The notes below the pieces were generated by a model, which saw only the letters and a list, made by a program, of their open reading frames with translations, was not told where the DNA came from and did not search any database. DNA of 64,000 bases from Chondrilla cf. caribensis (Eukaryota; Porifera; Demospongiae; Chondrillida; Chondrillidae), in assembly GCA_964020155.1 (NCBI GenBank), contig OZ026546.1:4918900-4982899 (forward strand), read 5' to 3'. Shown in pieces: positions 16,126 to 64,000 of this stretch. Positions within the stretch are counted from its first letter, which is position 1. Every line of letters begins with the position of its first letter. A program made the position numbers and the translations under genes.

Positions 16126-16703
16126 CTAATTTGTGTAGAGTATATTAAGTATAATTGTTCATTAAGTAATCTGCTCATTGCATACTCCTGGTAATACACA
16201 AACTTCACTGAAGTCATAGCTTATCTGCACAGTGTGTGTATGTCAACCATTGCTGATAACAAGGACTTTTACAATAAATGTGATTTTGTGTGCCCTTTAA
16301 GGCACTTACTAATCCAATCAAAATAGACATAACTAAAAGAGTGCTGGAGTGAATATAATACATAGCTACAGTTAAATTAAACCTCATAAACACGATATTG
16401 CTTAGTACAATATCTCTCATCATGAAACTTTTGTCAAATCCCAAAATTTACTGCTAATGTACATACACATTATGGACGTACTGTTAGCTAACACGAAATG
16501 TTGAAGCTAATTGTCCACAGTTTGTTGCAGAGATTCAACTGTACAGGCATATGCATTCATTTGTGTTAAGTGACAAAATCAAATAACCAATAGGAAGTGA
16601 AGTAGCACGCTTGAAAATGAATTTACTCTTATTATACATAATTTGTAAGTATAGACTTCGACAAATCTTCAGCTCTTTATATTTTATACAATGTCAAATA
16701 AAA

Positions 16704-16713
16704 ATTGCGCAAG
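16704..16713. promoter_or_regulatory. C/EBP-like ATTGCGCAA site upstream of the A-type gene
   Basis: ATTGCGCAAG lies 32 bp before the ATG. The same core occurs before the related first exons at 22530, 36918, 42854 and 60933. It matches the C/EBP consensus TTGCGCAA; binding is inferred. Confidence 0.45.
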
Positions 16714-16735
16714 ACCCAATAATGTAAAAACAAAC

Positions 16736-17454
16736 ATGGCTGTTCGCGATCTCGTTCTACTGGAGGGTATTAACTTATATAAAACCCAACTGTTCCTGGT
16801 CGTTTGTTTCGTGTTTAATCTTCCTATAAACGGACAAAGTGAGTGTTTAGTATCTATAAGTCTGTAATTTGGATATCTCTCCGTAGACCTACCTGTTAGG
16901 TATCGAGTCGATCTGAGTATGGACCCTAAATACGTGAGTGTTCACGTATTCGGCATTCTACATGCATCAAGTTATGTGTCCGGAATTGTAAGATGGGTTT
17001 ACTGAAGTAAACTGACCTGCTAATTTTTTGATAGATTGAGCGTCCGTGCACGTTTTGTTACAAATCTTGTTTCATCCGTTTTCTGATCCCGTCCTTGAAG
17101 TTAATCGTAGGACCATAAGTGTAAAGAAGTATACATAATTCGAACTATAATATTATGCATATTTTTTTCATGAAATTTCGAGTGCTCACGCTGTAAATGT
17201 GCGTTTTATACGATTTGTCTAGTAGATATGATTTATGATTATTATTATTATTATTATTATGATATTAAATACACATTTATTATTATTATTATTTAAGTAA
17301 TGATATAATTATTACACTCATATTTACAATTACATAAAATACACATAAGTTATGCATATATATACACATATTTTACAATTAAATAAAATAAATATAATAA
17401 TAATGATTACAAGAATAATAAAAACACTACATATAGCTAAATAAAATCCTCACT

Positions 17455-18255: not shown

Positions 18256-20620
18256 TTGAATCTCCAGGTGTGGGCACACCAACTAGTCCTACAGTATGTA
18301 TTGGTAATATTGCTACACTGACTTGTGATATCACTCAGTCCAATGGAGTTGCCCCAATCTGGAGAGTCTTTACTACATCTGATACCAGTGGATCTCCTGT
18401 GGCCTTCCTTACTTCTGGTGAGAATAGCCCTCCATACAACTACCCTACAGTACAACCTGGAGACAATGTAGCAAGACTAGAAGTGATGGCTAGTTCAAGT
18501 ATTGATGGATACCATTTCCAGTGTAGACTACCCCTTCTGAGTGGTGATGTTGACAGTCCTGGTACTGGGACCATCACATTGACAGGTACTAATGTTATTT
18601 ATAATCAACTGTAACTTAATACATAATTTAAATAAGAATAAATATGTAAATCTATCCAATTGAGGCCATTTTTGATGCAGCGTGGTCACAAAATATCTTT
18701 TTTGCTCATACATAGACTTGGGTGTCTATGATGTAATCAACTCCTTTGATGTGTTAAAGCTTCCTCACTATCTGGATGTCCTTTTCATCCTAATTTGAAG
18801 GAAATGCCTCTTACTACATATGTACCATGTACGTATGTATTCTGTTAGTAATGTGTTGATAACAAATGACTTAGTTGTTACATGGGTATAGGTAGCTTTG
18901 TACATACGTATATACATACACGTAGGTACATCAGGAGATTAACATGTCTTATTGTGTGCACCTGAGTGTATGTGATGCTCATTCATATCTATGAAGGGAA
19001 TACATGGTTAAATCCTGTATCAACTTGTGTATTGTATGTACTTGTGTATGGTGGGAGCCAAATTCAGTTTGCATTCATAAAAAAACATGGCCAAACAGGG
19101 ACATAATTGTCTTTTGTTTTTCACTGAGATTGGAAATTTTTATAATGGTTATTGTACTTATAATTGTTGTACCCACACAGGTATAATATTTGGCAAAGTG
19201 ACTTTGCTGGTTTCGATCCAAATAGTAGCTTTATCTATGTACGTAGGTCTAGTTCATGTTTGTTGCCACTATTTATCATGGTGGCAACAAATGTGAGTTG
19301 ATCAGAGGTGGATCTGGAATTAAATTTGTGCGCCCTAATAATAACGGAGGTTAAATTTTAATTGTGCCTTGCATGCATTATCCAATACCAATCTGGTCTA
19401 TGACAATACTTTATGTGTGTGTTTGCATGTGTCATGTGCCTACATACACTTGTGTGTGCTTACATATTCCTGCATGCATGTGTGTGCCTTAGTGTGTGTG
19501 TGCATGTAACAGTGTCCTGTGCGACAGTGCCATGTGGAACTATGTACATTATGTATGTACTGATTTGGAGTTGGTCACCATGGTAGTAGTGTGCGACATT
19601 ACATCCCACAGTGTCTCAGGTACAGTCGTGTGGTATGACTGTATTTGTCTATATTACGTGTGCGTGTCTAAGTGCTGTAGAATTGCAGTCCATAACGGTA
19701 TTGAAGCCCCATGGTTGAACCTTATCCTACCTCTGATCCTGTTAGTTCTGTAAACTCAGCTTTCTTCAACTGAATGTCATGTTCTCAGAGGAGAGGCTAC
19801 TCAGGTTACATGCTGACCACAGAACCTGATGAAGAATATCAATAGTCTAAGTGATGTATTACGTAGTTATCACTCGACTTTCATGCATTGGATTATTGTA
19901 TGCTCCCCTCATGTGGGTGGTTCTGAAGCCTCGATCGGGTAAAGAATACAGTCATGTTAATAAAAGCTAGATAATAACTATTATAGTACTTGATGAATAT
20001 GAGAGAAGACTTGCAGTAGTCTGCCTGAGTGGTAAGGAATTCACAGATATTACAGAAATACACCCACACACACCCATCCACATACACTACAACCTCTGAC
20101 TTATCAGCTTGCTTGCGCTGATAATTATATTCAAATTCCCCACAATTATCGAGCATCGATTGATTACGGTGGATTATTTTCCTGGCATTACTTAGAATAA
20201 GGCTACAGTGTGTAGCAAGACTAGAACTACACCTTGTTAGGACAGAAGACATTTGTACATGTTTATAGTATTGTTTCTACACATTTATCTTTCAATATTA
20301 GACATTCCTTCATGCCCTACAAGTTGTACAAGGTTTAGAAATGAGGATTTCACAACTGTTTCTGTTTCCTGCCAACAACCTCCTAATACTCCTCCAGTCA
20401 CATCCACTACAGTCACCTACTGTCCTACATCATCACCAAACTGTGGGAATAGTATGAACTGTACCACTAGTCCATGTACTATTAGTGGACTCAATGCCTG
20501 TGAAGATTATCAGTTGAGGGTTGTTCCAAACAACAACTGTGGAAGTCCTACTGGATGTACTGTGAATAGTGTAATGTCTGAGGGTCAAGGTTAGTAACAC
20601 CCACCCACGCACACATGCGT

Positions 20621-20672
<52 letters not shown>

Positions 20673-21278
20673 GCATACACACACAATTAGAATATGGCTA
20701 CTGTGTGTAGAGAGCCTAGAACTACACCTTGTTATGGCAATACATATTTTTACATGTCTATTAGTCTCATGTACCACAGATCCACTTCTCCAATTTTAAT
20801 AATTATGCATTATGTCATAATTATTAAAAATGGAGGCGAGAAGTGGGTCTGTGCTATGTGAAACCACATGTCTACAGCATCGTTTGGGCACATTCATCTT
20901 TTATTCGTTTCAGACACTCCTTCCTGCCCTACAAGTTGTACAAGGTCTAGAAATGAAGACTTCACAACTGTTTCTGTTTCCTGTCAACAACCTCCTAATA
21001 CTCCTCCAGTCACATCCACTACAGTCACCTAGTGTCCTACATCATCACCAAACTGTGGGAATAGCATGAACTGTACCACTAGTCCATGTAATATTAGTGG
21101 ACTCAATGCCTGTGAAGATTATCAGTTGACAGTTGTTCCAGCCAACAACTGTGGACGTCCTACTGGATGTACTGGGAATAGTGTAATGTCTGAGGGTCAA
21201 GGTTAGTCACACACGCACACACACACACACACACCACATACGGTAGAAGGCAAAAGATTGTTGTTACACTCTTTAGTT

Positions 21279-21370
<92 letters not shown>

Positions 21371-21371
21371 G

Positions 21372-21403
<32 letters not shown>

Positions 21404-22299
21404 CACCAGGTTACATGTTCCTGTCTTCCTACGTCCACAATAGATGTGCCATCTTGTCCCAATGGTTTAAAAGTAGAGAATGTTGACTCAATCAACTGCT
21501 TTGTATCACTGACCTGGGAACAACCTCCGAATACTCCTCCAGTCACATCCACTACAGTCATCTACTGTCCTACATCATCACCAAACTGTGGGGATAGTAT
21601 GAACTGTACCAGTCCATGTATTATCAGTGGACTAGATCCAGGTACAGAGTATCAGTTTACAGTTATTCCAAACAACAACTGTGGAAGTCCTACTGGATGT
21701 ACTGGGAATACAGCTACTATGACAACCCTTGGTAAGCAATGTACATGTCTTCACAGATGTTGTCCTAGTATCTGTACTGATATACTGTATAATAATATGT
21801 GCAATGACCAGAAATACCATGCATTCCGTTCACAGTCTGTTATAATTCTTGCCTTGGATATTCGTCCTAGCTGTTTATGTAAACTTCCTGTCATGTAGTG
21901 ACCACATCAAACAATTAGGTAAAACTGCACTAGTCCCCTCACTATGTATCAATTGAAAGGCTACTGTAACATTCACTTCACCTCTCTCTACTGTATCTAC
22001 TCCTGCCTCTAGATTCCTGTACTGCCAGCTATCGTCAGCCAAGTGAAGGGGTCTCCATTGATGCAGCTAGTAGAACATCCTTGGGTATCGGTATAGCTGT
22101 CCCCATTGTTATCCTGATAGTGGTCAACATCATCAGTGTGGTGGTTGCCGTCCTTGTAACAATACACTGCTACAAGAAGACATCTCAAAAGAGTTCTCCT
22201 TCAAAAGGTGAAGATGTCTATGAACAAGTGGAGGGACAAAATCCCTGCACAAACATCATGATGACTGACAATCCAGCATATGGTCCAGTGGAGAAGTGA
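16736..22299 (+). CDS. A-type Ig/FN3 receptor gene, unit 1; one FN3 exon carries a stop
   Basis: Exons: 16736-16838 signal peptide (MAVRDLVLLEGINLYKTQLF...NGQ); 18268-18585 Ig (TLTCDI, IWRVFTT, DGYHFQC); 20302-20589 FN3; 20914-21201 FN3 with in-frame TAG at 21030-21032; 21444-21731 FN3; 22013-22299 TM and tail. All junctions are phase 1 with GT-AG sites. With the defective exon skipped the product is 427 aa: a type I surface receptor with Ig-FN3-FN3, helix [20 protein letters not shown] and a short tail. The tail keeps YEQV and NPAYGPV, but the YEDI seen in its paralogs has become CTNI. The NPAY here is an NPxY-type motif absent from its paralogs (SPAY). Intron 1 holds an antisense LINE fragment. 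Either an exon-skipping gene or an early pseudogene. Confidence 0.75.
17225..17520. repeat. (ATT)n-rich tracts
   Basis: Several ATT/TTA runs (17238-17290, 17454-17510) separated by AT-rich DNA at the 3' side of the antisense LINE fragment; probably derived from its tail. Confidence 0.7.
17660..18114 (-). mobile_element. LINE fragment encoding a nuclease-like C-terminus
   Basis: The minus-strand frame ends at TAG 17657-17659 and encodes GLHRADGKRPDGVTMVPW, FLAWDVTCVDSF, EKKYSHLEHSYSFQPIAFET and LMQRLSVAVQTGNAISVLGS. I recognise this as the C-terminal region of a non-LTR retrotransposon polyprotein. The RPDG...WDVT spacing suggests a PD-(D/E)XK endonuclease-like fold (inference). The fragment is GC-richer than its surroundings, 5'-truncated, and sits inside ATT microsatellite in intron 1 of the A-type gene, antisense to it. 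Confidence 0.75.
18115..18255. repeat. (AAT)n-(ATT)n inverted microsatellite before the Ig exon
   Basis: AAT repeats (18115-18150 and 18172-18220) run directly into ATT repeats (18221-18254). Together they can form a long hairpin ending 12 bp before the Ig exon acceptor. Confidence 0.9.
20602..20684. repeat. (CA)n at the FN3 donor site
   Basis: CA run beginning about 13 bp after the donor at 20590. Confidence 0.9.
20914..21201 (+). pseudogene. FN3 exon with premature stop (unit 1 A-type gene)
   Basis: A 288-bp exon, otherwise intact with splice sites, in which the TAC codon of the conserved TYCPTSS core is TAG (21030-21032). It is phase 1 at both ends, so skipping restores the frame. The equivalent exon in unit 2 (41000-41287) is open. 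Confidence 0.85.
21206..21406. repeat. (CA)n tracts between FN3 exons 2 and 3
   Basis: A short CA run at the donor (21206-21234), unique DNA, then a CA run of about 130 bp ending just before the next acceptor region. Confidence 0.9.
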
Positions 22300-22559: not shown

Positions 22560-23830
22560 ATGGCTGTTTGTAACCTTACCCTTTTTCTGCTGAAGAGAGC
22601 TCTGTCCTATAAAACCGAATTGTTCGCGATGTCGGTCGTTTGCTCAATTTCGTGTTCAATCTTCCGATAAATGGGCAAAGTGAGCGGTTATTATTGGTAA
22701 ATATCAGTATGTTCATTTAAATTATTGCTGTGTGTTCTTTAACATCGCGCAGATCGGAACGCATTTGACATGCAGTGGAACCTCTCTATTTAGGACACTT
22801 TGGGACCTTGAGATTAGTCCTTATTACAGAGGTTTCCTGAATTCAAAGGTCATTCATTACACTAAAGTGCTACACTGGGACACAGAATGGTGTCCTTATT
22901 ATAGAGGTTTCCACATTTCAGAGGTTTGTAATAGAGAGGTTTCACTGTAATACAATGTCCAGATTATGTGTACATGTCCGAGATTGTAAGAAAAGGAAAT
23001 TTATACTTTGCAAAACATCAATATAAAATTAGCAATTTAACATCAACATTACACATGAATGAGACAGTTAGCTGCAAGGAGTCTTCCTGTCTGGGCCTAG
23101 GAAGGCTACCCAGAATGCTGTCTGTGTTTCCCTTCTGAATCTCCACCGAGACATCTATTGTGGAGTATGAAGCTAATAGGGAAATTGACCTAATAATTTC
23201 AACAATTACACATTCACGTATTGTTTATTAAGTGCATGCCAATCGCGATTTATCGGTTTTGCCGTTAATCCCTTGTAGACCATGTGTAACTGTGACCATA
23301 GTAATGGAGTATATACGTATGCTATTCTGTTTTATGCACATTTTATGCAGTGTCGAGTACTCACAATGTACGTGTATTCGTTCGTTATTCAACGTAAATC
23401 ATTGATTTGAATAATAATAATATGGTTTCCCCCAAAATAATGTATTTATTGCATGTGCCTACACTTTATATACAGAATTGTGTCTTAACATTACACTTTT
23501 ACTATGATACTCCAGGTGCTGGCACATCTGCTAGTCCTACAGTGTGTAATGGTAGGACTACTACACTGATGTGTGATATTACTCAGTCCAGTGGAGTTAA
23601 TCCAGCCTGGAGAGTGTTCTCCACATCTGAAACCAGTGAATCTCCTGTGACCAACCTCGCTAGTGGTCAGAATAGCCCTCACTACAACTACCCTACAGTA
23701 CAACCTGGAGACACTGTAGTAAGACTAGAAGTGAATGCTAGTTCAAATATTGATGGATACCATTTCCAGTGTAGACTACCCCTTGTGACTCCTGTTGACA
23801 GTCCGAGTACTGGAACCATCAAAGTGACAG
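22560..23830 (+). pseudogene. Ig-only receptor pseudogene, unit 1
   Basis: Exon 1 (22560-22679) is related to the A-type signal exon, but a length change after the hydrophobic core shifts the frame to a TAA at 22668-22670, and the exon no longer ends in phase 1. The Ig exon (23516-23830, 105 codons) is fully open with both cysteines, Trp and splice sites. No FN3 or TM exon follows on this strand before the B-type gene at 30827. The Ig exon could still be used by splicing to another gene, or serve as a donor for gene conversion; a relic is the simpler reading. Confidence 0.7.
22773..22947. mobile_element. Tigger-derived MITE (175 bp)
   Basis: Ends with CAGTGGAACCTCTCTAT and its near complement (ATAGAGAGGTTTCACTG), resembling the termini of the full Tigger element at 4580. 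No ORF. An orthologous copy lies at 43084-43258 in unit 2, so it predates the unit duplication. Confidence 0.75.
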
Positions 23831-23934
23831 GTACGTACGTATGTGATGGTTGGAAGTAATCATGTGCACACAATAGGGCTGAGAATCGGCTACAAGTTTC
23901 AAATCGATTATCAGTGCATAGAAACCACACAAAC

Positions 23935-26350
<2,416 letters not shown>

Positions 26351-26590: not shown

Positions 26591-26712
26591 TACGTGCTGA
26601 GGGGTACATACAGGAGAAGTACATTAGTACAACCATGAAGAGATGTACATTCAGTAGGTTTAATCAATGCCAACACACACACTAGACTCACCTACTGCTG
26701 GTAGGAGACCTC

Positions 26713-29700
26713 TTAGGTCTGTCCCACAGACAAGTACTTCACAGGCTCCTCTTTAGAACGTATTGTGTTTCCCTCAGAGCCACCAGCTCGTTCGGAGAAT
26801 TCAAGAGCAGCATATTGGATCTAGGGGACAACAACACAGAGTAAATGGTAGGACACACTATTGGTTGAAGAATCAGGTGTAAATGGGGGCAGAAGTATAT
26901 TTACCAAAGTGGGTAGAACATTAAGTATAGGAGAGTTTAAATTGAAGTGGAAGTATCAAGAGATACCATTTGGAAGCGGTGGGGAGTGGATGTCCCTGTG
27001 GTACCCCATGAAATACACTACAGCAGTATACCAAAACACATGTATGGGATATTTTAAACAGTGAATAGAACAGTGGAATACAAACGAGATGTACTTGTGC
27101 AACACACAGGCAACAGAATGGATGGCTATTTTAAGAGTATTTCATCTTCCATGTGGACTACTGCAGCCAACTGCACTACCTTGTCCTCGTTCTCTTTCTT
27201 CTCTCTCACTTGTTTAGGATCAACATAGTTGGTGGCAGGCAAGGGTCTAGTTGGCAATGAGAAATATTATACTATTTAAGAAGTACAGAGTGATTGAGTA
27301 GTGTTCTTAACATGCCTTGTTGAACTGGATCTTTCAGGTTCACCTGAAATGAAACAACAAACAAAAGAACAAAATAAACGTAAAATCAACACCATTAGAC
27401 TGTGATGTTCACATTTGTGGATATAATAACATGTCATTGCTCCAAATCTTGTGAGCTGAGGTACTGTGTTTTATGTGTGTAACAAACCTCCACAACAGTA
27501 CTGACAGAAGAAGACATGGCAATAACCTGTGGGCGTGGTAAGCAAATTGAATGTAAAGAACAGTTGGCTGATGCAAGATTACATCTCAACCTCACTTCTT
27601 CCTTCACAAGAGCTGCAACACAGAACTGCAACCAGTACAGCAATAGCGTATGTAGCAAGAGAAGCTATTGCTAATCCTGCTAATCCACCTACCACTCCAC
27701 CAACTATGCCACCCACTTCAGTGATGAAAATAGAGAGTATACGTAGATACATAATATCATGTACACATGATACAAGTGGTACAATATGCTTCCGTACATG
27801 TATTCAAATAACAGTTTAAATGAAAAATTGTCTACAAATACAGACTTTAAGTTAAGAAAATTGACGAAGGTGACACACTTCATAAGATACACACACAAAT
27901 ATACACTTGTACACATTTGCTTACATGGAAATCAGGCAGATTATTACTAAATACAAATAATTTGCGTTCTGGTACACAGGTGATGGATAGGCTGATCAAA
28001 GATCGAAGAAGTGTGCTGATATATGTATGTGGTACAGCAAAGGTCACCAGACAAGGTTCAATGTTTGGGATTGACTTATTGGAAGCCAGGCAGGAAAGTA
28101 GTAAACACATTCTATTTCCTATGATATTTGCTCTGGAGTATATATGCAATAATATACATACATGGTATAAATTGTTGTCTTCATTTAAACTTGTATCCTC
28201 CCTGGATGTGTCCTGCAGCACACCTAGGCAGGATATACCTTATGCATACCAACTAGGTGTGCACTATGTGCAGATACCTCACTGCAGACCTATATATATG
28301 ACATTGTGTAGATTTGGTGATATCAACAATGTATGTCTGAGAAAATGGATGCAGCATGGCTGTTCATTCAGAGGTCCCCAATGACAGATCGACAAACTCT
28401 ACCCATCAATGACTAAATATATAAAATTGTTATTTAAAAATCTGAAAATAGTTGAGTAGATTGTTTCAAGACATCAGATGCTCTATTAGTGGATCAAGTG
28501 TCAAAAGCAACTAATGTCTATAATCATCATGCACGTCCATGCTGCCATCATGCCCCATTCCCAGAGATAAGACAATTTGGTGCAGACCCATTGGGACCAA
28601 AGAAACCATGCAAGTAGGTGTGTGGTTAGGAACTTCTGGGAGTGCTATGGACCAGAAGCCATAGTACGGAATTAGTTAATATTGCTAAACTGCTTGGTAC
28701 TAATACAGTAGTCACTTGCTAATAATGTTACCATAATATGATGTATCACTTTTCATCTATTGTACCCATGGCCTATTGGCTGTTCAAATAATAATAATGA
28801 AAAAAGCTAATAATACAGTACATGCTGTAATATTGTATACTGTATTGCACACATTTGTAAGGAAGCATACTCACCAGGTGGAGGAGGAGGAGTAGATGTA
28901 GCTGCAAAAAATGGAAGCCACATAAACTATAAACATTAAACACTGAAATAGAATAACAGATACTTGTGTAATTTATGTTTCTCAGTCCTGATTGTACAGT
29001 AAGCTACAAATAATCATGTGTTCTTATGTTTGTGAATAAAAATTTACATAATTACATTATTAACATTAAAGATATATTTAATTGGTTTGGTTCAAATAGG
29101 GTGTGAGTAGTAATGTTTAAAATCTGCATTCCATTAAAAATTTACACTCAGTCTGGTTTGTTGAGGAACAATAAGGAATGTGAATAAGACAAGATACATA
29201 TGCATCATAACAAAGGTCGGCATTCCTGTTTGGAGCAATAATCACATCATAGAATGCATAAACACGACAGTCTACATGACCCACCAAAACTACTCCTGGA
29301 CCTATTGACAATGTGAACAGATCAACTGTTTACAATTTGGGAGAAAATGTCTACAGTGATTGATTAGTTTAGAAAACAACTCATTATAGTACCATGTATG
29401 TAAGTCAATACTATCATCCTGATATGGACACCATTCTTTGTCATTGACGAATGGTGCTACTGAGGATGTTTGTACATGTGCCAAGGTTTTGAGAAGAACA
29501 ATTTTTGATGCAACACTTTGTGACAGAGGTAATAATTCAAATTTAAATGAATACTGCAATCATTAGCATACACACATATGAATGTTTATATGAAGTAAAA
29601 CAAAATAGAGGTATAAAATAATCAGTATACAACAGTATACATAAAAGAACATTCTTCGTGAAACTTTATAAGTTTGAAAGTTATACAAAATACATTAAAC

Positions 29701-30259
29701 TTGAATGCAAACTGCATGCCTGGTATGTTAGGCCTGGAATAAGATCACTTGTCTACCACACAACCAAGGAAAAACAGGTTAGGTTATGGAGATTTACACC
29801 TTGAAATACAGATTGGCAAAATGTCTGAAGGAGATGTGCACTTCTGTTACTTCCCTCAGTGATCAAATTTAATTTAATAGGTTATTGTCGACAATGACAT
29901 TGGCTCATAAAGCATACAACTCAGGGTACATTCACATGGGGACGTACATCACCTGTGAAGTCGTGCACATTGCTTACCAAGGGTCCTAGTCATATTCCCA
30001 GTACATCCAGTAGGACTTCCACAGTTGTTGTTTGGAACAACTGTAAACTGATACTCTGTACCAGGATCTAGTCCACTAATAGTACATGGACTGGTACAGG
30101 TCATACTATTCCCACAGTTTGGTGATGATGTAGGACAGTAGGTGACTGTAGTGAATGTGACTGGAGGAGTATTAGGAGGTTGTTGCCAGGTCAGTAATAC
30201 AAGACAGTTGATTGAGTCAACATTTTCGACTTGTATACCAGTGGGACAAGATGGCATAT
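26713..30259 (-). CDS. FN3 transmembrane receptor with two ITIM-like motifs, unit 1 (5' end not found)
   Basis: Exons read on the minus strand: 30259-29978 FN3 ([17 protein letters not shown]..., LDPGTEYQF); 28901-28875 Thr/Pro linker (ATSTPPPPP); 27715-27596 TM helix (LAIASLATYAIAVLVAVL) with juxtamembrane CCSSC; 27343-27316 Ser-rich exon with a GC-type donor; 27246-27210 ending NYVDPKQ; 26820-26713 final exon. Every junction keeps one frame, giving 200 codons from the FN3 exon on. The tail reads IQYAAL and, 25 residues later between tyrosines, VKYLSV, then TAA at 26715-26713. Both fit the ITIM pattern (I/V/L)xYxx(L/V/I); YVDP is a third possible phosphosite. ITIM tails recruit SH2 phosphatases in vertebrates; that role here is inference. 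No signal exon was identified upstream; the gene faces the B-type gene head-to-head. Confidence 0.65.
28390..28870. other. Intron of the ITIM-tailed gene, nothing recognised
   Basis: AT-rich, with strong similarity to 48940-49330 of unit 2 but no supported exon. Confidence 0.35.
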
Positions 30260-33517: not shown

Positions 33518-33569
<52 letters not shown>

Positions 33570-33580
33570 GCGCACGCGCG

Positions 33581-33613
<33 letters not shown>

Positions 33614-36949: not shown

Positions 36950-42300
<5,351 letters not shown>

Positions 42301-42605: not shown

Positions 42606-42671
42606 AGGACAAAAACCCTGCACAAACATCATGATGACTGACAGTCCAGCATACGGTCCAGTGGAGAAGGG
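42606..42671 (+). pseudogene. Vestige of an A-type receptor tail
   Basis: Encodes the end of a tail ([17 protein letters not shown]) nearly identical to the unit 1 gene at 22235-22296 but without a stop, and lies 300 bp after the complete tail of the unit 2 gene. Its 3' flank matches 22300 onward. It marks an ancestral gene end overwritten by recombination. Confidence 0.75.
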
Positions 42672-47033: not shown

Positions 47034-48259
47034 TTAGGCCTGTTCCACAGACAAGTACTGCACAGGCTCCTCTTTAGAACGTATTGTGTTCCCCTCAGAG
47101 CCACCAGCTCGTTCGGAGAATTCAAGAGCAGCATATTGGATCTAGGGGACATCAACAGAAAGTAAATGGTGGAACACACTACAGGTTGAAGAATCAGGTA
47201 TAAGAGGGAACAGAAGTATTTTTGCCAAGGTGAGTAGGGAATCAATGTGTAGAACAGTAAGTATAGGAGAATACCAATGTATACGTATGCCTAAACATAA
47301 ACGTGCATCAATTCAAAGTACCAATGTAAGTACATATACGTAGATATGTACATCTCAAATGCATTGTATGCAAAGGTGCACTTGTGTGTATGGTATGTAA
47401 TTAAACAGTATACAGAACAGTGGAATACAAAAGGATGCATTACTATACATATGTAACACACAGGTTATGGATTGAATGGTATTTTTTAAAGAGTATATTA
47501 TCTTCCATGTGGACTACTTTGAGGGAACATACTGTAGAACAGTGTAGGACAAACACTAGCAAGAAACCTTGTGTACATGTCTACTTGTGTATTTATGTGC
47601 ATGGGATATTTCGAACAGTGGAATACAAACAAAATATACTTGTGCAACAGGCAGGCCAGGTAATGGATGGCTATTTTAAGAGGTATTTCATCTTCCATGT
47701 GGACTACTGCAGCAAACTGCACTACCTTGTCCTCTTTCTCTTTCTTCTCTCTCACTTTCTTAGGATCAGCATAGTCATCAGCAGGCAATGGTCTAGTTGA
47801 AGCAATGAGATATATACTATTTGAAAAGTGCAGAGTGATTGAGTATTGTTCTTAACATGCCTTGTTGAACTGGGTCTTTTGGAGTCACCTGAAATGAGAA
47901 CAACAAACACAAGAACAAAATAAATGTAAAATAAACACCATTAGAAGGCGATGTGTACATTTGTGGATAAGATAAAATGTAATTGTTCCAAATCGTAAGC
48001 TGAGGTATTGTGATTTATGCATGCAACAAACCTCCACAACAGTACTGACAGAAGAAGACATGGCAATACCCTGTGTGTGTTGTAAGCAAATTGGATGTAA
48101 AGTGCAACTGGTAGATGCAAGATTACATCTCAATCTCACTTCTTCCTTCACAAGAGCTGCAACACAGATCTGCAATCAGTACAGCAATAGCGTAGGTAGC
48201 AAGAGCACCTATAGCTAATTCTGCTGATCTGCCTACCACTCCACCAGCTATGCCACCCA
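47034..48259 (-). pseudogene. ITIM-tailed receptor, unit 2 copy; ectodomain lost or altered
   Basis: The membrane and tail exons are conserved: 48259-48140 TM, 47888-47861 (GC donor retained), 47792-47756 (ending DDYADPKK), and 47141-47034 final exon with IQYAAL and VQYLSV before TAA. The FN3 exon is missing. The linker exon equivalent (49382-49348) is 35 bp instead of 27 and breaks phase. The TM helix has gained Arg, Glu and Asp. The tail differs from unit 1 at only three residues in the last exon. It may be a decaying copy, or may be expressed from other upstream exons outside my model. Confidence 0.55.
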
Positions 48260-50809: not shown

Positions 50810-52487
50810 ATGGAGGTTCTACAGCATTTGATTTACCCTTTCCTTGTTTTTGTACAACTATTTCATGTTATCCGCGGACAAAGTTAGTCAACATAATATT
50901 ACAACTATTATTGCATAATTGCTATTATTACAGTATGCTATATACTGTTCAGTCACTACAATTATGTATTTCATTTCATATCCATACGATCCTTGCCCTC
51001 CCAGGTCACCCTTAGCATTTTAACCCATTTCCGAGGTTCACTTTTGTATCTCAGTATTATCAATAATGATGAGTGTTTCCCATGAAGTATGATAATTAAT
51101 TTTTGATTTTATGCTACTTTCCTTTTCGGATGCCTTACTACCAGTCTATGTCTTAAGTCCTAGATAGATTTCAACTCTATCACTGTCTGGTTGGAATTTT
51201 ACATGGTATAATATTCTATTATCAGGGATTGATGATTGACAATGGTATTGTATAGAAATACGGCATGGGCGCTATTAATAATAAGACAACAGCATACGTA
51301 AGACGTGTTATAGTCCTCCTCAACAACTGATTGAACCTTGTATAATTCACATTTAAAGTTTCTAATGAGCAAATTCTTAGAAGAAATGTCTGCGAGAAGA
51401 AATAAATTCTGAACTACTCTTCTACAGTGTTCTCTAACTTTGGAACCATGTCATATGAAAGATTAGTACATTCTATTCTTCAGTTACTTGCAGCATGCAC
51501 AAACATATGTAAGTGTGTGGCCTACTCTAGATCTATACCTACATCAATACCTGTCCTTTAGGTGCTTACCTTATCATATTCCTATTCCTATTCCACATTA
51601 TGCAGTATATAGAACTACGTATAACAATTCTGCATACGTATGGTATCAGCCATTTGATGTTTGCGTCACTAGACTGATGATGCAATGTCAAATTAGTCTA
51701 TCAGACAGAAATTATAGAACCATTCTCTACCTACGTAACTTAGCTTGTAAGGAAGTGTAGGCAAGTTGTTTATACAATTGATGACTCCTTTGTGTTGTGA
51801 ATGAAATTTTTCCTTTTACATAATGGTTACCATAGATTATGTGTACTGCTTAGTATAAAGAATCTATTGAATAAAGAAGTGTCCATGATTACGTACTAAT
51901 TTTATTACATTGGTATATTCAAATATTAAACATTTTGCAATAAAAGTCTCCTATATACATATGTGTACCTACATATTGCAATTATATGTGATTACTAAAC
52001 ATCTGAAGTACCTGTCATCTCTCTCCAAGGTGTCGGCACACCCAGTAGTGCTACAGTATGTGATGGTAGGACTACTACTGTCACACTGACTTGTGATATC
52101 AGTCAGTCCGGTGGAACTTCCCCCCTCTGGAGAGTCTTCACCACATCTGATACCAGTGGATCTCCTGTGGCCTCCCTTGCCAGTGGTGTGACTAGTCCTC
52201 CCTACAACTACCCTACAGTACAAGTTGGAGACAATGTAGCAAGACTGGAAGTGAATGCTAGTTCAAGTATTGATGGATACCATTTCCAGTGTAGACTATC
52301 CCTTGTGACTCCTGTTGACAGTCCAATGACTGGAACTATCACAGTGACAGGTATGCATGTACAGTAATTGTTTATAATCAACTGTGCTTAGTATTATAAC
52401 AGGGAATCAAGATGTGAATCTGTGTATACATATAATATGTATGTGTATTATGAATGAAGAATGTCTGCTGCAGCGTATGTATATATA

Positions 52488-52538
<51 letters not shown>

Positions 52539-53495
52539 TGTGTGTGCGTGCGCGCGTGTGTGCGTGTATATATGTACATACGTATATTATGTATGTACAT
52601 ATATTATGTATGCCTGCATATGTGGTATGTTCCTGTATGTATGTGTCATGTGAAACCATGTACATTACGTAGGGTATTACTGAGTCTGAGTTGGTCACCA
52701 TGGTATTAGTGTGTGACAGTACATCGTATGTTGTCTCGATCAGGTACAGTCAGTGGTTTGACTGTATTTGTATAATATTATGTTTGTGTGGTTAAGTGCT
52801 GTAGAATTGTACTCCATACAACAGTGCAGCCCCACAGGTGAAAGAAATTTAAAAAAGTTATCCTACTATCAGATTTCCCTCATTAATGCCCGTGGTACCC
52901 TTGGATAAAAATAACATTACCAATTAAGGTGAATCTATTGTAAGATATCCTGTTTGTTCTGTAAACTCAGCATTCTTCAACTGAATGTCATGTTCTCAGA
53001 GGAGAGGCAACACAGGCTACGTACATGATAATTTGACAATGCATATAAAATAAATCAAGGGTGTTTAGAATGTATGTGATTCGTGCTAATTTATAGATTA
53101 TTAACATGATTCACAGGATTATCGGTTTCTCTTGAAATATGTATATATGTACTGTTGATGGTGTGAAGCAGCATGGGCATTTGTGAATGTTGAACTGCTT
53201 TTCACAAGTAGAAGGAAAGCAAAACTGGTCAGTATGTAATGTATGTACATGTAAAACTTTTTGCATGATATCAGAATTTTCCTCAACTGAGGTGCAGCTA
53301 ATGCTATACTAATGAGTGCAGGAGATCATCATGATGCCATTGAGTATCATTTTATCTCATGAAGGCTTTGCAATGTTGCTCCAGCCTAGTTGGTACTGCA
53401 TGTTTGCTTCAAAGTCTTTGTGAACAACTTCTCACATGGATGGATTTCAAATTTGCGAATACTTTTATAACACCCACACCCTAGGCCACCCATAC

Positions 53496-53536
<41 letters not shown>

Positions 53537-53557
53537 CACACACACACACACACACAC

Positions 53558-53593
<36 letters not shown>

Positions 53594-56500
53594 TGTTGGG
53601 TATATTGTAATTTTATGTTCACATTAGCATTCTCTTGTTCAATGTAATAATGTGTAAGACAGAGTCATCATTAATGTTCATTGTTTTGGTCAGACAATCC
53701 CACAATATTATTAAGTTTAATTCTACTTTTATGAGTTAAAGACGTACATTATGTATGCATTGTTAGACTGTGTTTTGCATACATTCAACAGTATACTTTT
53801 ATAATGATTGTGGTAGACTATAAGTGTAATTCATGTTGTAGTGTTTGGTGTTCATATTCATATGCTAATACATGCATGTATGTGAGGATAAAGTATACAT
53901 ATACACTGCCCACTTATTTTACATACGTACATAGCTGCTCATGGAGTTTTGAATTGTATGCCTCCAGTTCTGTGTTTTAATTGAAAGTGAAACAATGGTA
54001 GTGCACTGTGCCTACTGTGGAACATTCCTGTAGGGCTGTGTGCAGTACAATGGCGACCCTGATTCTTAATCAGGGTATCAGGGTAACTTATTTAGACTGA
54101 GGAGCCTTTAGCCATTGGCTATTCTGACAGGCACCCAGTATAAGATCCTACTATAGGATTGGTAATGAAATCACCCTACTAAAGATAATTGGTCGCCTTG
54201 TAGCAGCTATTTGCAATGCTGTTTAGTGAATGTTGCTGGCCATTCTTTAGCTAGTATAGTTCCAATGCTGAGATGAAAATGCGATAATGATAAGCACATG
54301 GTAATGCACACACATTATAATTTGATGTTTTAGTATTCATCAGTCGTGTGTATACCATACACATATATAGTGAGAAAAAATATTGCAGAAGCAAATTTGT
54401 GCTCATTAATGTATTCATTTTGTAATTTGTGTGTTGATATTTCGCATTGATTTTATGTTTAGATAATTTCGCTTGTAAGGATTCTGCGAATACACTTGTG
54501 AATTGGGCCAAATTACAATAATGGGAAATTTTAACTTTGTTAAATTTGCCCGCTATACAGTAAAAATAATACACAGTACATAATAATAGCGATGCTCCCT
54601 AGTGCAGGGTGCAGCACCCTGTTGCATTTTCAACAGTGAATAATGAAAGGCACAGTATTCTTAAATCTGGATTGACCATGGCTGATAAGTGAGGGTCCAC
54701 TGCACGTGTATTACACCAATAATTATTGGAGTTAAATACATATGTACCTGACAGTGTGTGTGTCATTCTAACAAAATTGAACCTACAAGGATGGTTGAGC
54801 ATGGTGACCTGAGTTGGTTGCAGGTGTGATATTCAGGGTTTTTTGTTACTATAGTCACATTTGTATGTACCTTGAAATCTGTTTTGTATTCATGTCATGT
54901 TAGTGTATTTACTATAATGACATACGTATATGGACAATCCAGTCTTAATATAAATTGACAGAATATAAGTATGCAGTAAAGTGGTTGTTCCTTTAATTAT
55001 CTCCTGCTAAGCAATATGTATGTACTTATGCTTTTTTCATTTTAGACATTCCATCCTGCCCTACAAGTTGCACAAGGTCTAGAAATGAGGATTTCACAAC
55101 TGTTTCTGTTTCCTGCCAACAACCTCCTAATACTCCTCCAGTCACATCCACTACAGTCACCTACTGTCCTACATCGTCACCAAACTGTGGGGATAGTATG
55201 AACTGTACCACTAGTCCATGTACTATTAGTGGACTCAATGCCTGTGAAGATTATCAGTTTACAGCTATTCCTAACAACAACTGTGGAAGTCCTACTGGAT
55301 GTACTGGGAATAGTGTAATGTCTGAGGGTCAAGGTTAGTCCAATACATATGTATGCACATACGTATGTTGTTGTCCTTGTGTGAATGGAGCACATATAAT
55401 AGATGTCGAAAAGGTTTCTGTAACTTAATCGTAATTTCACAGTCATGCAATAAATACTTTTGTATTGCAATTTTAATCTTAATGTGACTGGATCATAAAG
55501 TGTCCGTAGTTCCATTGTTATCCCATGATAGTTTATCATAAATTTTAATCATAGTGTCTATCAATTTTTTAATGTTCCTACTCACTCCTTTATTTTTTCA
55601 ATTTTCTTTTCTAACTGCAGTAGCTGTTCTAGTTCAATCATAATGCCATTGTACTGTATAATTTGAAAGAATCTAATTATAATGTTACAGAATAAAAGTT
55701 ACCGGTTGATCCAATAACAGTTAATGTTTATCATTTTTAATTCAAAGTTAACTGATTTCTGTTAACCGTTAACCGATAACCGTTAATGGATAACCTCAAA
55801 TGGTACATTATAAATTCTTAATCGTTTGATTGATCACTGTCTATCTTACATTGCATCATTGTATATCTTCCCCTCAGGCGTGTAGCTCTTGAGCCTCAGG
55901 CAAAATGCAGTATGTAAATAATAGAAGGTGGATTGGAACTACAGTGGAACCTCTCTATAAAGGACACTTTGGGACCTTAATTTTGTTCTTGTTACAGAGG
56001 TTTCTCAATTCAGAGGTCATTCAATACACTTCAGTACTAGACTGGGACACAGAATGGTGTCCTCATGATAGAGGTTTCCACTCGGGCTGAGAATCGGCTG
56101 TAATTTTCAAGTGATTATCAGTACATATTAAGAGATTGATTAATCAATTAATCACCGGAAGTAATTAAGTGGGCGTAACCGGAAACCATTCCCACTTTAT
56201 TACACTGAGTAGATGTGAAGTGAAGTCCATAGAGTCCTTTTTGCATCTCAGCTACAAAATTGAACCCATGGAGTGAAGCTTAAGGTTCTGTGTAATAAAG
56301 TGGGGGTGGTTTTTGTTCTACTCAATTAATCAGTTCCTGTGATTAATCGATTTTGCTTCCACTATTAACAATAATCAGATTTGAAATGAAAATCGATTGT
56401 TAATCGATTAATCGATTAATCGTCCCAGTACTAGTACTTATATGTAATAGACAGCAGGCTCACAGCAACTCTGCTTGAGTAGTAATAATATATTCAAAGA

Positions 56501-58628
56501 TATACAATATGACAGTAATACACCTGGCAACACCCATTTACATATACATACACTACGTATAAACACACCCAAATCCTCCCCATGCATCCATCAACAGTTT
56601 CATCCTCCACACCTACCTTACTTCTTGTATCATACAAATGCTAAAATTTACTTGTATTGTACATGCATTATCCGATACCAATCTTGTCCATGGCAATACT
56701 CATACTTTGTGTGTTTGCATGTGTATGTCATCTGCCTATATATGTACACTTGTGTGTGCTTACATGTACATGCCTGCATGCATGTGTGTGCCTTAATGTG
56801 TGTGTGTAACAGTGTCATGTGCGACAGTGTCATGTGAAACTATGTACATTATGCACGTATGTACTGATTTGGACTTGGTCACCATGGTATAGTAGTGTAT
56901 GATATTACATCATACAGTGCCTCAAATATGACTGTATTTGTCTATGATATTATTATTATGTGTTTGGTTAGGTGCTGTAGAATTGCAGTACATAATAGAA
57001 GCTGGATAGTAACTATATAGTACGTAATGTGTTATGACAGAAGGATCACAGTAAATCTGCTTGAGTACTAGTAGTAGGAAATTCACGTACAGACACACAA
57101 AATTAATAATACAGTAATACACCCACACACACCCATCCCTGTACACTACCTCCTGTGACTTATCAGCTTGCTTGTGGTGATAATTATATTCAAATTCCCC
57201 TCATTTGAACAACAATTGATTATGGAGGATTTATTGTCCTGGCATTACTTAGAATAAGGCTACTGTGTGTAGCAAGACTAGAACTATGCCTTGTTAGGAC
57301 AGGAGACATATTTACATGTCTATAGTTACGTTTCTACACATTTATCTTTCTATATTAGACATTCCTTCCTGCCCTACAAGTTGTACAAGGTCTAGAAATG
57401 AGGATTTCACAACTGTTTCTGTTTCCTGCCAACAACCTCCTAATACTCCTCCAGTCACATCCACTACAGTCACCTACTGTCCTACATCATCACCAAACTG
57501 TGGGAATAGTATGAACTGTTCCACTAGTCCATGTAATATTAGTGGACTGAATGCCTGTGAAGATTATCAGTTGACGGTTGCTCCAAACAACAACTGTGGA
57601 AGTCCTTCTGGATGTACTGGGAATAGTGTAATGTCAGAGGGTCAAGGTTAGTCACAACCAACCCACACACGCACGCACGCACACACGCACGCACACACAC
57701 ATACACACACATGTACGCACACACACACACACGCACACCAGGTTATATGTTCCTGTCTTGGTATGTTCACAATATAGATATGCCATCTTGTCCCACTGGT
57801 TTAAAAGTAGAAAATGTTGACTCAATTAACTGCTTTGTATTACTGAGCTGGCAACAACCTCCAAACACTCCTCCAGTCACATCCACTACTGTCACCTACT
57901 GTCCTACATCATCACCAAACTGTGGGAATAGTATGAACTGTACTAGTCCATGTATTACTAGTGGACTAGATCCTGGTACAGAGTATCAGTTTACAGTTAT
58001 TCCAAACAACAACTGTGGAGGTACTACTGGATGTACTGGGAATATGGCTACTATGACGACTCTTGGTAAGCAATGTGCATGGCAGACGATGTCCTGATAT
58101 CTAGGCTGATATACTGCATATGTGCATGCAATGACTAGGAATACCATACATAGTACACTACAATCAAAGTCTGCTAATATTCTTGATTTGGATATTCATT
58201 CCTGTTTATGTAAACCTCCTGCCATGTAATGACCACATCAAACAACGTGGTATAGCATTATGAAAAACTACACTAAACCCCTCAACATGTATCAATTGAA
58301 AGGTTACTTCGCCTCTCTCTACTATATCTACTGCTGTCTCGTAGATTCCTGTACTGCCAGCTATCGTCAGACAAATGAAGGGGTCTCCATTGATACAACT
58401 TGTAGAACATCCTTGGGTATTGGTGTAGCTGTCCCCATTGCTGTCCTGATAGTGGTCAACATCATCAGTGTAGTGGTCGTCTTCCTCATAACAAGACACT
58501 GCTACAAGAAGGCATCTCAAATGAATTCTCCCTCAAAAGGTGAAGATGTCTGTGATCAAGTGGAGGGACCAAAGACCTATGAAGACATTGTAATGACTGA
58601 CAGTCCAGCATATGGTCCAGTGAAGTAG
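50810..58628 (+). CDS. B-type Ig/FN3 receptor with ITAM-like tail, unit 2
   Basis: Exons: 50810-50882 signal peptide ([20 protein letters not shown], donor GTTAGT); 52030-52350 Ig (two residues longer: TTTVTLTCD); 55046-55333, 57359-57646 and 57778-58065 FN3; 58345-58628 TM and tail. The product is 513 aa, with every junction in phase 1 and no stops. It has three FN3 domains where the unit 1 copy has two. The tail reads DVCDQV (the first tyrosine changed to Cys), then YEDI and YGPV. FN3 1 has no CA repeat after its donor, unlike the equivalent exons of the other genes. Intron 2 is enlarged by unique DNA (53000-55000). Predicted type I surface receptor. Confidence 0.85.
51010..52020. other. 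Intron 1 of the unit 2 B-type gene
   Basis: No exon recognised. About 51700-52000 matches 31080-31390 of unit 1; 51030-51690 is an insertion without recognisable features. Confidence 0.4.
52493..52566. repeat. (TG)n microsatellite
   Basis: TG run with TGCG variants in intron 2. Confidence 0.9.
53000..55040. other. Intron-2 insert specific to the unit 2 B-type gene
   Basis: Apart from a CA run at 53499-53590 this stretch has no counterpart in the other units, and I see no coding frame or terminal repeats that would identify an inserted element. Confidence 0.4.
55690..56430. repeat. Low-complexity and MITE-like repeats in an FN3 intron
   Basis: Degenerate GTTAACCGATAACC motifs (55700-55795), a Tigger-type MITE fragment (55942-56083, preceded by TA; right end lost), then an ATCGATTAATCGATTAATCG-rich element (56085-56430) whose start (GGGCTGAGAATCGGCT) also occurs at 23875 and 44190. 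Confidence 0.55.
57662..57739. repeat. (CA)n with ACGC variants at the FN3 donor site
   Basis: Begins about 14 bp after the donor at 57647 and ends about 40 bp before the next FN3 exon. Confidence 0.9.
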
Positions 58629-60344: not shown

Positions 60345-60649
60345 ATTCCTGTACTGCTAGCTATCGTCAGCCAAGTGAAGGGGTCTCCATGGCCATTGAT
60401 GCAGCTTGTAGAACATCCTTGGGTATTGGTGTAGCTGTCCCCATTGCTGTCCTGATAGTGGTCAACATCATCAGTGTGCACGTGATGATTGCTGTCCTTG
60501 TAACAAGACGCTGCTAGTGCTCCAAGAAGACATCTCAAAAGAGTTCTCCTTCAAATGGAGATCGAAGATGTCTATGATCAAGTGGAGGGACCAAAGACCT
60601 ATGAAGACATTGTAATGACTACAGTCCAGCATATGGTCCAGTGAAGTAG
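60345..60649 (+). pseudogene. Orphan TM/tail exon
   Basis: The acceptor and the sequence SCTASYRQPSEGV through the TM helix are preserved, but insertions give an early TAG after the helix (TRRC, then stop), and later indels disrupt the tail frame around YEDI. No Ig or FN3 exon precedes it. It is the remnant of an A-type gene whose body was deleted. Confidence 0.85.
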
Positions 60650-60970: not shown

Positions 60971-62635
60971 ATGGCCGGTTGTAGTCTTTTTCTACTGAAG
61001 GAATATCTGTCTTATAACGCCGAACTGTTCGTGGTCGTTTGTTTCTTGTTAAATCTACCGATAAACGGGCAAAGTGAGTGTGTAGTATCTAACCTACGTA
61101 TAATGTGTATAATATTATGTAGCGAGTAAGTCGGGGTCGATCTGAGAGCGTATTAAAAACTTGATACTTCAACTTGTGCTGTCCAGATTATGTAATTATG
61201 TGCTTGGGATTGTAAGAAGGGAATTGATCTACTAATGCGAATGATTGCACGTCCGGTGTGTCTCGTCATTGAAGTACATGTACACATGCAAAACTCGACT
61301 CTGGATTTCGAATACTTTACTTTCTCCCTGCTTATCCAGCCGTATGTAGACGGTTCTCGCCGAAATACGAATATGTGCTACAAGACATATATGAAAGCAT
61401 GCGGCGTGGTGTTCGTTCTTATCCGATTGAAATTGGTGGAGAAAACCTGCCCCGGCCGAATTCCCACTACACGTGGACGAATTTCCGTTTATTCAGCCAT
61501 CACGATGAAAAGGGATTTTTTTTCCTGGGAAATTATACTGGACACACTCATTTATTATATCCTATTTACCATTGGCAAGGCCTACAAGTTTTAGCCACCT
61601 GTATTCGCGGAAAACGGATGGCTGGGAAATTATACTGGACACTTTCATTGATCATAATATTATCCTATTTACCATTGGTAAGGCCTACAAGATACCTCTG
61701 TTTAAAGTTTTAGCCACCTGTATTCGTGGAGGATTAGGTAGCCGAATTTACATAACCGTACCCTCGAATTCCCGTTTTTCACTCTATGTACAAACAAACA
61801 TGGCTGTTTGCAATTTCGTTCTAATTAACTCTGTCTTAGGGCTATATAAAACCCAACTGTTCCTGGTCGTTTGCTTCGTATTTAATCTTCCTATAAACGG
61901 ACAAAGTGAGTGTTTATTATCAATAACCCTGTAATTTGGGTATGACTCCGTAACTGTTAGGTATCCTCGAGTCATTCTGAGTAATCGATATTTTACATAC
62001 ATTAAGTTCTGTATGCAGGACTGTAAGATGGGCTTATTTAAGTAAATTCCCTAATAATATGGTGATAGATTGATCGTCCACATTTTGTTACCAACAAATC
62101 TTGATTTATCGATTTTCCTGTTCTGAAATTTAATCGTAGGACCATAATTGTAAAGAAGCATACGTGAATATTTAAGTATATTTTTCATAAGTGGTGAGTA
62201 CGCACGCTGTATATATGTGCACTTGTTCATTCGATTTGTCTAGTGTATCATTATTAGTACTATAATTCTTAATATATTCTTCTTCTTATCTTTATTATCA
62301 TTTTGATTACCTCACTCCAGGTGTCGGCACACCCACTAGTGCTACAGTGTGTGATGGTGGGACTGCTACACTCGAGTGTGATATTAGTCGGTCCAATGGA
62401 GAGGCCCCACTCTGGAGAGTCTTCACCACATCTGATACCAGTGGATCCCCTGTGATCACCCTTGCTATTGGTGTGACTAGCCCTCCCTACAAATACCCTA
62501 CAGTACAACCTGGAGACACTGTGGCAAGACTGGAAGTGAATGCTAGTTCAAGTATTGATGGATACCATTTCCAGTGTAGACTACTCCTTGCACCTCCTGT
62601 TGACAGTCCGAGTACTGGAGTCATCACAGTGACAG
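60971..62635 (+). CDS. Ig receptor gene of unit 3 with two first exons; continues past the window
   Basis: Two intact signal-peptide exons precede one Ig exon: 1a at 60971-61073 (MAGCSLFLLKEYLSYNAELF) and 1b at 61800-61905 (MAVCNFVLINSVLGLYKTQLF), both ending CAA A|GTGAGT in phase 1. The Ig exon is 62321-62635 (TLECDI, LWRVFTT, DGYHFQC), open, with donor GTAACT. Only 1a has the C/EBP-like site. Downstream intron 2 matches the other genes up to the window end, where the region just before an FN3 exon is reached, so FN3 and TM exons are expected beyond 64000. Exon 1a is of the same class as the broken first exons of the Ig-only pseudogenes. Confidence 0.75.
61525..61740. repeat. Tandem duplication of about 100 bp between the two first exons
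   Basis: GGGAAATTATACTGGACAC, CCTATTTACCATTGG and TTTTAGCCACCTGTATTCG each occur twice in the same order (from about 61528 and 61624). Confidence 0.85.
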
Positions 62636-62639
62636 GTAA

Positions 62640-64000
62640 CTAGGTAATATTATCAGCTGTACCTTAATACATAATAACTGGAACAAATATGTAAATTAAT
62701 TCCAGTTGAGGCCATTTTTTGCAATGTGGTCAAAGATATTCTTTTTGTCTGTGTACTCACACACAGATTAGAACATAAATTTGGGTGTCTATGATGTAAT
62801 TAATTCTTTGAAGGTTCAAGCTCATCTTGATATCCTTTTCGTCCTAATTTGAAGGAAAATTCTTACGTATGTACCATGTATTTATGTACTCTGTTAGACA
62901 TTCGTTGATATCAAATGACTTATTTTGTTACATACTAATGTATAGGTACACTTGGGGATATGTACATACACGTAGACACATTAGTGATAAACATGTCATA
63001 TTATGTGCATCAGAGTGTATCATGCTTCTGGTGCTCATTCATTTCTTTAAAACGGAACTTATATTTCAATGCTGTATCAATTTGCATATCGTATGTATTT
63101 ACGTACGTAAGTATGGTGGGAGCCTAAGTTAGCTCACATTCGTAAAAAACACTGCCAAACATAGAAAAATTTTCTTTTGGTTTGCATGTGTGCATGTACA
63201 CATGTGAATGCTTACTGTGTGTACTTTCAGGTGTGTGTGTGTGTATATATACAGATTAATGTGTAATGAGTATTTAACAGTGTGTTGGAAAACTTTGTAC
63301 ATCATGTACTGATTTGGACTTGGTCACCATGGTAGTAGTGTGTGACATTACATCCTTCAGTGTCTCAGGCACAGTCATGTGGTATGACTATATTTGTATA
63401 TATACATTTGTATGCATATATAATATGTAATACCGATGTATGTGCGTATTTGTGGCTAAGTACTGTAGAAATTGCAGTCCATATCTGCGGTGAAGCCCTA
63501 TACACAGTTGATTATCCTGCCTTCTATAAGATTTCTCTCATTAGTGTCGGTGGTTTGCTGGATATACAATAACATTACCAAATAAAGGTGATTCTATTTT
63601 AAGATACCCTGTTTGTTCTGTAAACTCAGTGTTCTCCAACTGAATGTCGTGTTCTCAGAGGAGAGGCTACTCAAGTTATGTGCTGACCACAGAACCTGAT
63701 GAGGAATATCAATAACCTTAAGTGATATATTGTGTAATTATACCCAGCTTCTGCATGCACTGCATTTATTGTATGTCCCCTCAGGTGTGTGGTTCTTGAG
63801 CCTCAGGCAAAGAATACAGTACATAATAGAAGCTGGATAGTAACTATATAGTACGTAATGTGTTATGACAGAAGGATCACAGTAAATCGGCTTGAGTAGT
63901 GAGAAATTCACAGATACACAAGTATTAGAGAAACACACAAAAAGACACCCATCCATATACACAACCTTCTCTGTCTTACCAGCTTGCTTGCGTTAATAAT
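62640..64000. other. Intron 2 of the unit 3 gene
   Basis: Aligns with 18590-20100 and 38470-40000. No exon falls inside the window. Confidence 0.55.

Follow-up and report, generated by a model that had tools for sequence, protein, structure and literature searches.

Two classes of tyrosine-bearing tail in a duplicated cluster of V-type Ig/FN3 receptor genes

Receptor genes of the window

We analyzed a 64,000-nucleotide stretch of genomic DNA, hereafter the window, which corresponds to C1:4918900-4982899 of a 137-Mb genome (37 contigs). The window is a slice of a receptor cluster of approximately 0.9 Mb on contig C1, whose genes combine V-type immunoglobulin (Ig) and fibronectin type III (FN3) exons with a transmembrane (TM) segment and one of two classes of cytoplasmic tail. 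Class 1 tails carry two motifs of the immunoreceptor tyrosine-based inhibition motif (ITIM) type, and class 2 tails carry YxxI and [SN]PAY motifs. A preliminary description made from the window alone had proposed paired receptors here: five Ig/FN3 genes or gene parts with tails like the immunoreceptor tyrosine-based activation motif (ITAM), interleaved with two ITIM-tailed genes. All seven tails lie where it placed them.

We mapped exons by comparing pieces of the window with the window itself using tblastn. The plus strand holds recurring exon sets, each made up of a V-type Ig exon, two to three FN3 exons, and a TM/tail exon. The minus strand holds one Ig/FN3 gene with a YEDI tail (15.7-3.7 kb) together with two genes that have ITIM tails (30.3-26.7 kb and 48.2-47.0 kb). 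Tandem duplicate blocks of approximately 20 kb recur within the window, and their aligned pieces of at least 150 bases are 71 to 93% identical. Searching the genome with the class 2 TM/tail exon gave 86 matches at E ≤ 1. At E ≤ 1e-3, 60 distinct places, some of them broken or partial, fall within C1:4.71-5.61 Mb, with further exons at C1:1.9, 2.35, and 6.0 Mb and on C8 and C13. V-type Ig exons gave 21 genome matches, 20 of them on C1. The ITIM last exon occurs 13 times, always within 4.77-5.57 Mb on the C1 minus strand.

Two plus-strand class 2 genes, B (30827..34933) and D (50810..58628), are intact. Each has one open frame, with GT-AG sites in phase 1 at its internal junctions, in keeping with the splice phases first described, and this symmetric phase would permit exon shuffling. 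Gene B consists of a signal-peptide exon (30827-30899), a V-type Ig exon (31412-31726), two FN3 exons (33228-33512 and 34068-34358), and a TM/tail exon (34659-34933); the model skips a degenerate FN3 piece at 33712. Gene D has the same order (signal peptide, 50810-50882; V-type Ig, 52030-52350; TM/tail, 58345-58628) with three FN3 exons (55046-55333, 57359-57646, and 57778-58065). Both tails (34724-34933 and 58410-58628) are without the first tyrosine of the class, that of YDQV.

Gene A (plus strand) begins with a probable signal-peptide exon, MAVRDLVLLEGINLYKTQLFLVVCFVFNLPINGQ, assigned by eye at 16736..16838 and followed by GTGAGT. It continues with a V-type Ig exon (18261..18587), three FN3 exons (20301..21715, starting at 20301, 20913, and 21443), of which the 20913 exon has an internal stop, and a TM/tail exon (22078..22299) that ends in EDVYEQVEGQNPCTNIMMTDNPAYGPVEK and a stop codon. 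Gene C (plus strand) has a V-type Ig exon (38141..38464), three FN3 exons (40179..41715, starting at 40179, 40999, and 41449), a TM/tail exon with YDQV, YEDI, and SPAYGPV (42082..42300), and a second tail fragment after it (42607..42669). The minus-strand class 2 gene comprises an open frame with a probable signal-peptide exon, MLSFSVILYVFFSAFFVVEG, assigned by eye (15437..15733), an Ig-like exon with a weak Pfam match (15086..15397), an FN3 exon (6577..6843; tblastn E = 1.9e-22), and a TM/tail exon (3702..3923) whose tail reads from 3914 to 3702 and is without YDQV. The YxxI/YxxV endings first described are present in most window tails, but the gene A tail has YEQV and NPAYGPV with CTNI in place of YEDI, and the minus-strand tail ends in YGPM.

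Both ITIM-tailed genes, as reported, end in two motifs of the IQYAAL and VKYLSV/VQYLSV type. In copy 1, the exons are an FN3 exon (29978..30259; Pfam fn3 E = 1.6e-9), a TM exon (27596..27716), an exon reading TNYVDPKQVREKKENEDK with an approximate 5′ border (27180..27233), and the last exon, IQYAALEFSERAGGSEGNTIRSKEEPVKYLSVGQT and a stop codon (26713..26820). In copy 2, the TM exon (48138..48224) is followed by a last exon that starts with IQYAALEF and closes with EEPVQYLSVEQA, its end reading VQYLSVEQA and a stop codon (47034..47141). Repeat arrays that are open in several frames lie directly downstream of both genes (26307-26663 and 46195-46940), the copy 2 array being much longer. Two minus-strand open frames, 29559-29302 and approximately 29300-29110, were considered as ITIM ectodomain exons; they are partly conserved in other ITIM loci, but several copies have stops or are cut short, and we left them out.

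ITIM-type tails and candidate SH2 effectors

Of the 13 cluster loci read, 12 carry the first ITIM motif, [IL]xYA[AT]L, the exception being L115, which has His for Tyr. Nine carry the second, [VIL]xYxxV. Motifs of the form [ILVS]xYxx[LIV], located in the cytoplasmic tail of a predicted TM receptor, are those of an ITIM receptor. To estimate how readily such motifs arise by composition, we made 100,000 shuffles of three ITIM tails with approximate exon joins and of one consensus class 2 tail. Two ITIM-type motifs arose in 0.06 to 0.19% of shuffled ITIM tails, and the form [VIL]xY[AVTS]x[LIV]x[FW] in 0.011 to 0.082%.

Fuller ITIM genes occur elsewhere in the cluster. L099 is a near-complete gene with a signal exon, Ig, two FN3 exons, TM, a YADP exon, and ITYAALQFSEEAGGNGKNDIHCKEELVNVQYSEVERLQV; its start codon and its TM/YADP junction are provisional, and the first ATG frame at its signal exon was rejected since its phase does not match the Ig exon. 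An ENA protein, P0008, is identical to an L099 frame, which suggests that this species, or one very close to it, has a publicly deposited assembly. L088 has three FN3 exons, TM, a YVDS exon, and a tail running from LTYAALEF to VQYAAV. Eight ITIM loci were searched over approximately 5 kb, and five have sense FN3 exons upstream; two further loci were too short to judge and were left out of this tally. In a related protein, P0006 (a 1,053-base JGI contig), an FN3-like domain, TM, YADP, and ITYAALEFSEQAGS through to VQYMAV lie in one frame. The precomputed Pfam label of this domain is PF27934, not fn3, and it is 35 to 39% identical to the FN3 domains of both tail classes. The expectation that the tyrosine motifs persist in relatives thus held for both ITIM motifs in P0006, but the middle tyrosine of class 2 is lost in P0004.

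The preliminary description had looked to Syk- and SHP-like SH2 proteins as partners, and the genome has candidates for both. A tandem SH2 at C17:4511327-4513703 has SYK as its best match (E = 2.3e-39), followed by ZAP-70, for the SH2 part only. A sequence of the Syk family has been published for the sponge Amphimedon (PMC9601881). Two loci on C12 have the order SH2-SH2-PTP (protein tyrosine phosphatase). Pieces of one match PTPN11 (E = 1.6e-84), and the other is SHP-2-like by domain order and letters only. Because it encodes these Syk-type and SHP-2-type proteins, we regard the genome as an animal's; that the animal is a sponge is a presumption of the preliminary description. Class 1, at its 13 minus-strand places, is most likely an inhibitory receptor with two ITIM-type tyrosines, which Src-type kinases would phosphorylate, and the phosphorylated tail would then recruit the SHP-2-type tandem-SH2 phosphatase of this genome.

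The YxxI/[SN]PAY tails

Of the 86 matches, we read the class 2 tail in 51, namely the 30 best, a selection of 20 among the others, and the minus-strand copy of the window. The ITAM tally covers 50 of these (L067 was dropped because its frame is lost) and the tail alignment 49 (L067 and L079 dropped). The consensus starts with SPSKGEDVY(D/E) and has three motifs, YxxV, YxxI, and [SN]PAYGPV, whose tyrosines we call Y1, Y2, and Y3. Conservation in the aligned tails is 86% for Y1, 82% for Y2, and 100% for Y3, against a median of 82% for cytoplasmic columns; 23 of the 44 columns are at least as conserved as Y2. The P of [SN]PAY is invariant as well, and its A is 98% conserved. [SN]PAY is present in 49 of 50 tails, with S instead of N in 35 of the 49 aligned.

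If class 2 tails were real ITAMs, YEDI-x7-YGPV would be doubly phosphorylated and would recruit a Syk-type kinase, giving classical activating and inhibitory pairs. The Y2-Y3 spacing is within the ITAM range, the genome has the Syk-type tandem SH2, and a form of the motif relaxed to allow V is present in 34 of 50 tails (39 with M also allowed). This relaxed form, Y..[LIV]x6-8Y..[LIV], arose in 0.65% of shuffled consensus tails; allowing M and a spacing of x5-12 raised this to 2.4%. [NS]PxY arose in 4.2% of the same shuffles. However, the strict motif YxxL/I-x6-8-YxxL/I is found in none of the 50, and Y2 is absent from the C13 relative L098, the distant relatives L079 and L080, and P0004, which reads NSDTI at that point and has KNSDTIKMTDNPAYGPVK. 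Another related protein, P0005, has YEQV, YEGV, and three NPSY copies. We consider real ITAMs unlikely.

The core of the tail also occurs outside the cluster. A DNA pattern for I-x-M-x-x-[SN]-P-A-Y matched 93 times genome-wide and never in a reversed control; the cluster accounts for 49 matches, and of the 44 elsewhere, 15 are on C18. At C18:147200-147900 (L089), one frame contains nine tandem EDIVMEDNPAYEHT-like units, a multi-copy tail core, and other outside samples read NIEMDDNPAY, EIEMTSSPAY, and DIKMDPSPAY. Because none of the 50 tails has the strict motif, Y2 is only at median conservation, and Y3, the tyrosine that never varies, is part of an [SN]PAY also found outside the cluster, ITAM is not the simplest label, and we reject the ITAM-like tails of the preliminary description as stated. 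The tail sequences are better read as YxxI plus NPxY-like docking tails, with ITAM function possible.

A more far-reaching alternative is that class 2 tails serve docking or endocytosis through NPxY/YxxPhi motifs, bound by phosphotyrosine-binding (PTB) adaptors and AP-2 and giving no activation of the immune type, in an adhesion or scavenger family with an inhibitory side branch. The conservation of [SN]PAY, the pattern counts, and the C18 units all fit this, and YEDI, YDQV, and YGPV also fit the YxxPhi sorting signal. On the other hand, it leaves the joined ITIM class unexplained, the S form is not textbook NPxY, and at least three of the outside copies (C1:2353201, C8, and C13) belong to tails of this same receptor family. 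We see it as a serious contender that falls somewhat short of probable.

Shared ectodomains and the paired-receptor interpretation

Pfam alone gave weak matches to the Ig exons, hence we predicted the structure of the gene C exon (38141-38464); with a fold search, it indicates a V-type fold of the Ig superfamily. The two tail classes are joined to the same ectodomain types. The FN3 of ITIM copy 1 (30.2 kb) is 85 to 88% identical to the third FN3 of three plus-strand genes and 82% identical to the FN3 of another ITIM gene, and the Ig of the L099 ITIM gene is 70% identical to that of the window's minus-strand YEDI-tail gene. The tail classes do not fall on two sides of a tree built from 23 FN3 domains: four changes are needed, and none of 200 bootstrap trees has one. 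Our case for shared ectodomains draws on the percent identities, not on this tree. Paired receptors are defined by a clustering of genes whose ectodomains are related but whose tails differ, and as architecture the duplicated paired-receptor cluster of the preliminary description is supported by these sequences. Its inhibitory half is well supported by sequence; its ITAM half is weak. A related protein, P0003, has Ig-FN3-FN3 and a short hydrophobic C-terminus and is tail-less, like a glycosylphosphatidylinositol-anchored third class.

Related sequences bear on splicing. P0005 (a 1,415-base JGI contig with 8 members) joins FN3 to the TM exon at KLP|GEASQ, and P0016 (ENA, a genomic exon) has an unrelated flank ahead of the GEASQ that it shares with P0005; P0010 and P0015 likewise share an FN3 exon but differ in the sequence on either side of it. 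From these junction differences, we infer that the JGI contigs are transcripts and that a relative uses the Ig-FN3-TM-tail chain. Among the main 30 tails, synonymous divergence is 0.10 in the cytoplasmic part versus 0.36 in the TM part, which suggests tail exchange or gene conversion between genes with different TM types; a second, smaller subfamily (n = 9) is without that pattern (0.17 cytoplasmic versus 0.11 TM).

We think it probable that the locus is a duplicated cluster of single-pass V-Ig/FN3 receptors in which the class 1 tail is inhibitory and the class 2 tail (approximately 60 places) is for docking. The latter most likely docks SH2/PTB adaptors and would give an opposing or adhesive signal, with Syk engagement as a true ITAM a further possibility, and the cluster may serve in cell recognition. 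Several results weigh against this reading. Beyond the lack of a canonical ITAM, four of the 13 ITIM loci are without a good second motif (L059 has Cys, two copies read AGYTEV, and one copy is truncated), one is without the first tyrosine, and upstream FN3 exons were not seen in three of the eight loci searched. SHP-2 is not proof of ITIM use because growth-factor receptors use it too. The FN3 tree groups the tail classes more tightly than shuffling of the labels does (four changes versus a mean of 7.7 to 7.8, a count as low being reached in 6 and 1 of 500 shuffles), it has no strongly supported branch (none of 20 inner branches starred, 15 open), and a single origin of each tail class is compatible with it. 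The gene models of this animal are predictions from genomic sequence. Ratios of nonsynonymous to synonymous divergence (dN/dS; Nei-Gojobori, pooled pairs) are only moderately low, at 0.41 for the ITIM last exon (n = 10, one truncated) and 0.57 for the cytoplasmic tail (n = 42); the Ig exon gave 0.69 (n = 16), with two of 10 overlapping stretches above 1.

Also on that side is the state of the two window ITIM copies. Copy 1 has one FN3 upstream and no sense Ig exon that we recognized, in the 5.4 kb upstream of copy 2 we recognized neither an FN3 nor a sense Ig exon, and searching by eye found no signal-peptide exon for either. Both may be incomplete at their 5′ ends. They could instead be decaying gene fragments that are functionless here, which we hold possible if on balance doubtful: in both, the last exon retains its open frame and the two motifs, and L099 and L088 are near-complete genes.

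Among vertebrate paired receptors (KIR, LILR, SIRP, Siglec, and CEACAM), clustered Ig receptors likewise share ectodomains with opposing tails, and the double ITIM is likewise of the IxYAxLxF/VxYxxV type; one tail class here closely resembles the inhibitory "off switch" of human immune receptors. This likeness is one of architecture; the receptors here have FN3 domains, and class 2 has its own YxxI/[SN]PAY tail rather than a charged TM residue and an adaptor. A second comparison is with receptors in PMC12065747, which describes Botryllus fester co-receptors (FcoR) with ITIM and hemITAM and such motifs in Hydractinia, both being candidate allorecognition receptors with ITIM and ITAM/hemITAM motifs. 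FcoR differs in its V-Ig, sushi, and two C2-Ig domains, and the Hydractinia Alr and FcoR loci are linked to allorecognition, whereas the cluster here is known from the genes of one genome alone. According to the same paper, candidate allorecognition proteins are not conserved among sponges, cnidarians, and ascidians. Aggregation factors and adhesion molecules are the proposed recognition molecules of sponges; the aggregation factor, unlike these receptors, is an extracellular proteoglycan complex, and ITIM tails are unmentioned for sponges in the parts consulted of PMC12065747 and PMC11999971. In the literature covered, which included parts of those two papers and of PMC9505182 and took in few subscription papers, we found no description of ITIM/ITAM receptors for sponges, Porifera, or Amphimedon.

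If the animal is a sponge, paired-receptor logic would reach the base of the animals, and the peptides, SH2 domains, and genes concerned are concretely in hand. We advance only tentatively, and would sooner doubt than assert, that this is a megabase-scale sponge paired-receptor complex whose V-Ig/FN3 ectodomains are shared by two tails, one a true double ITIM and the other a YxxI/[SN]PAY forerunner of or substitute for the ITAM, with pairing as old as animals. That the inhibitory motif is plainly recognizable while its partner tail is not an ITAM bears on which half arose first.

Other features of the window are minor. An orphan V-type Ig exon (23509..23832, plus strand) lies between the gene A tail and ITIM copy 1, and its counterpart at 43826-44152 (plus strand), also in an interval between a plus-strand gene and an ITIM gene, carries a stop. 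After gene D come a broken sixth TM/tail exon with internal stops (60416..60646, plus strand) and the V-type Ig exon of a following plus-strand gene (62314..62637). Judged by eye, two long open frames resemble transposases: one of the Tigger/pogo type (4761-6287, minus strand), between exons of the minus-strand class 2 gene, and one of the Tc1/mariner type (1204-2235, plus strand).
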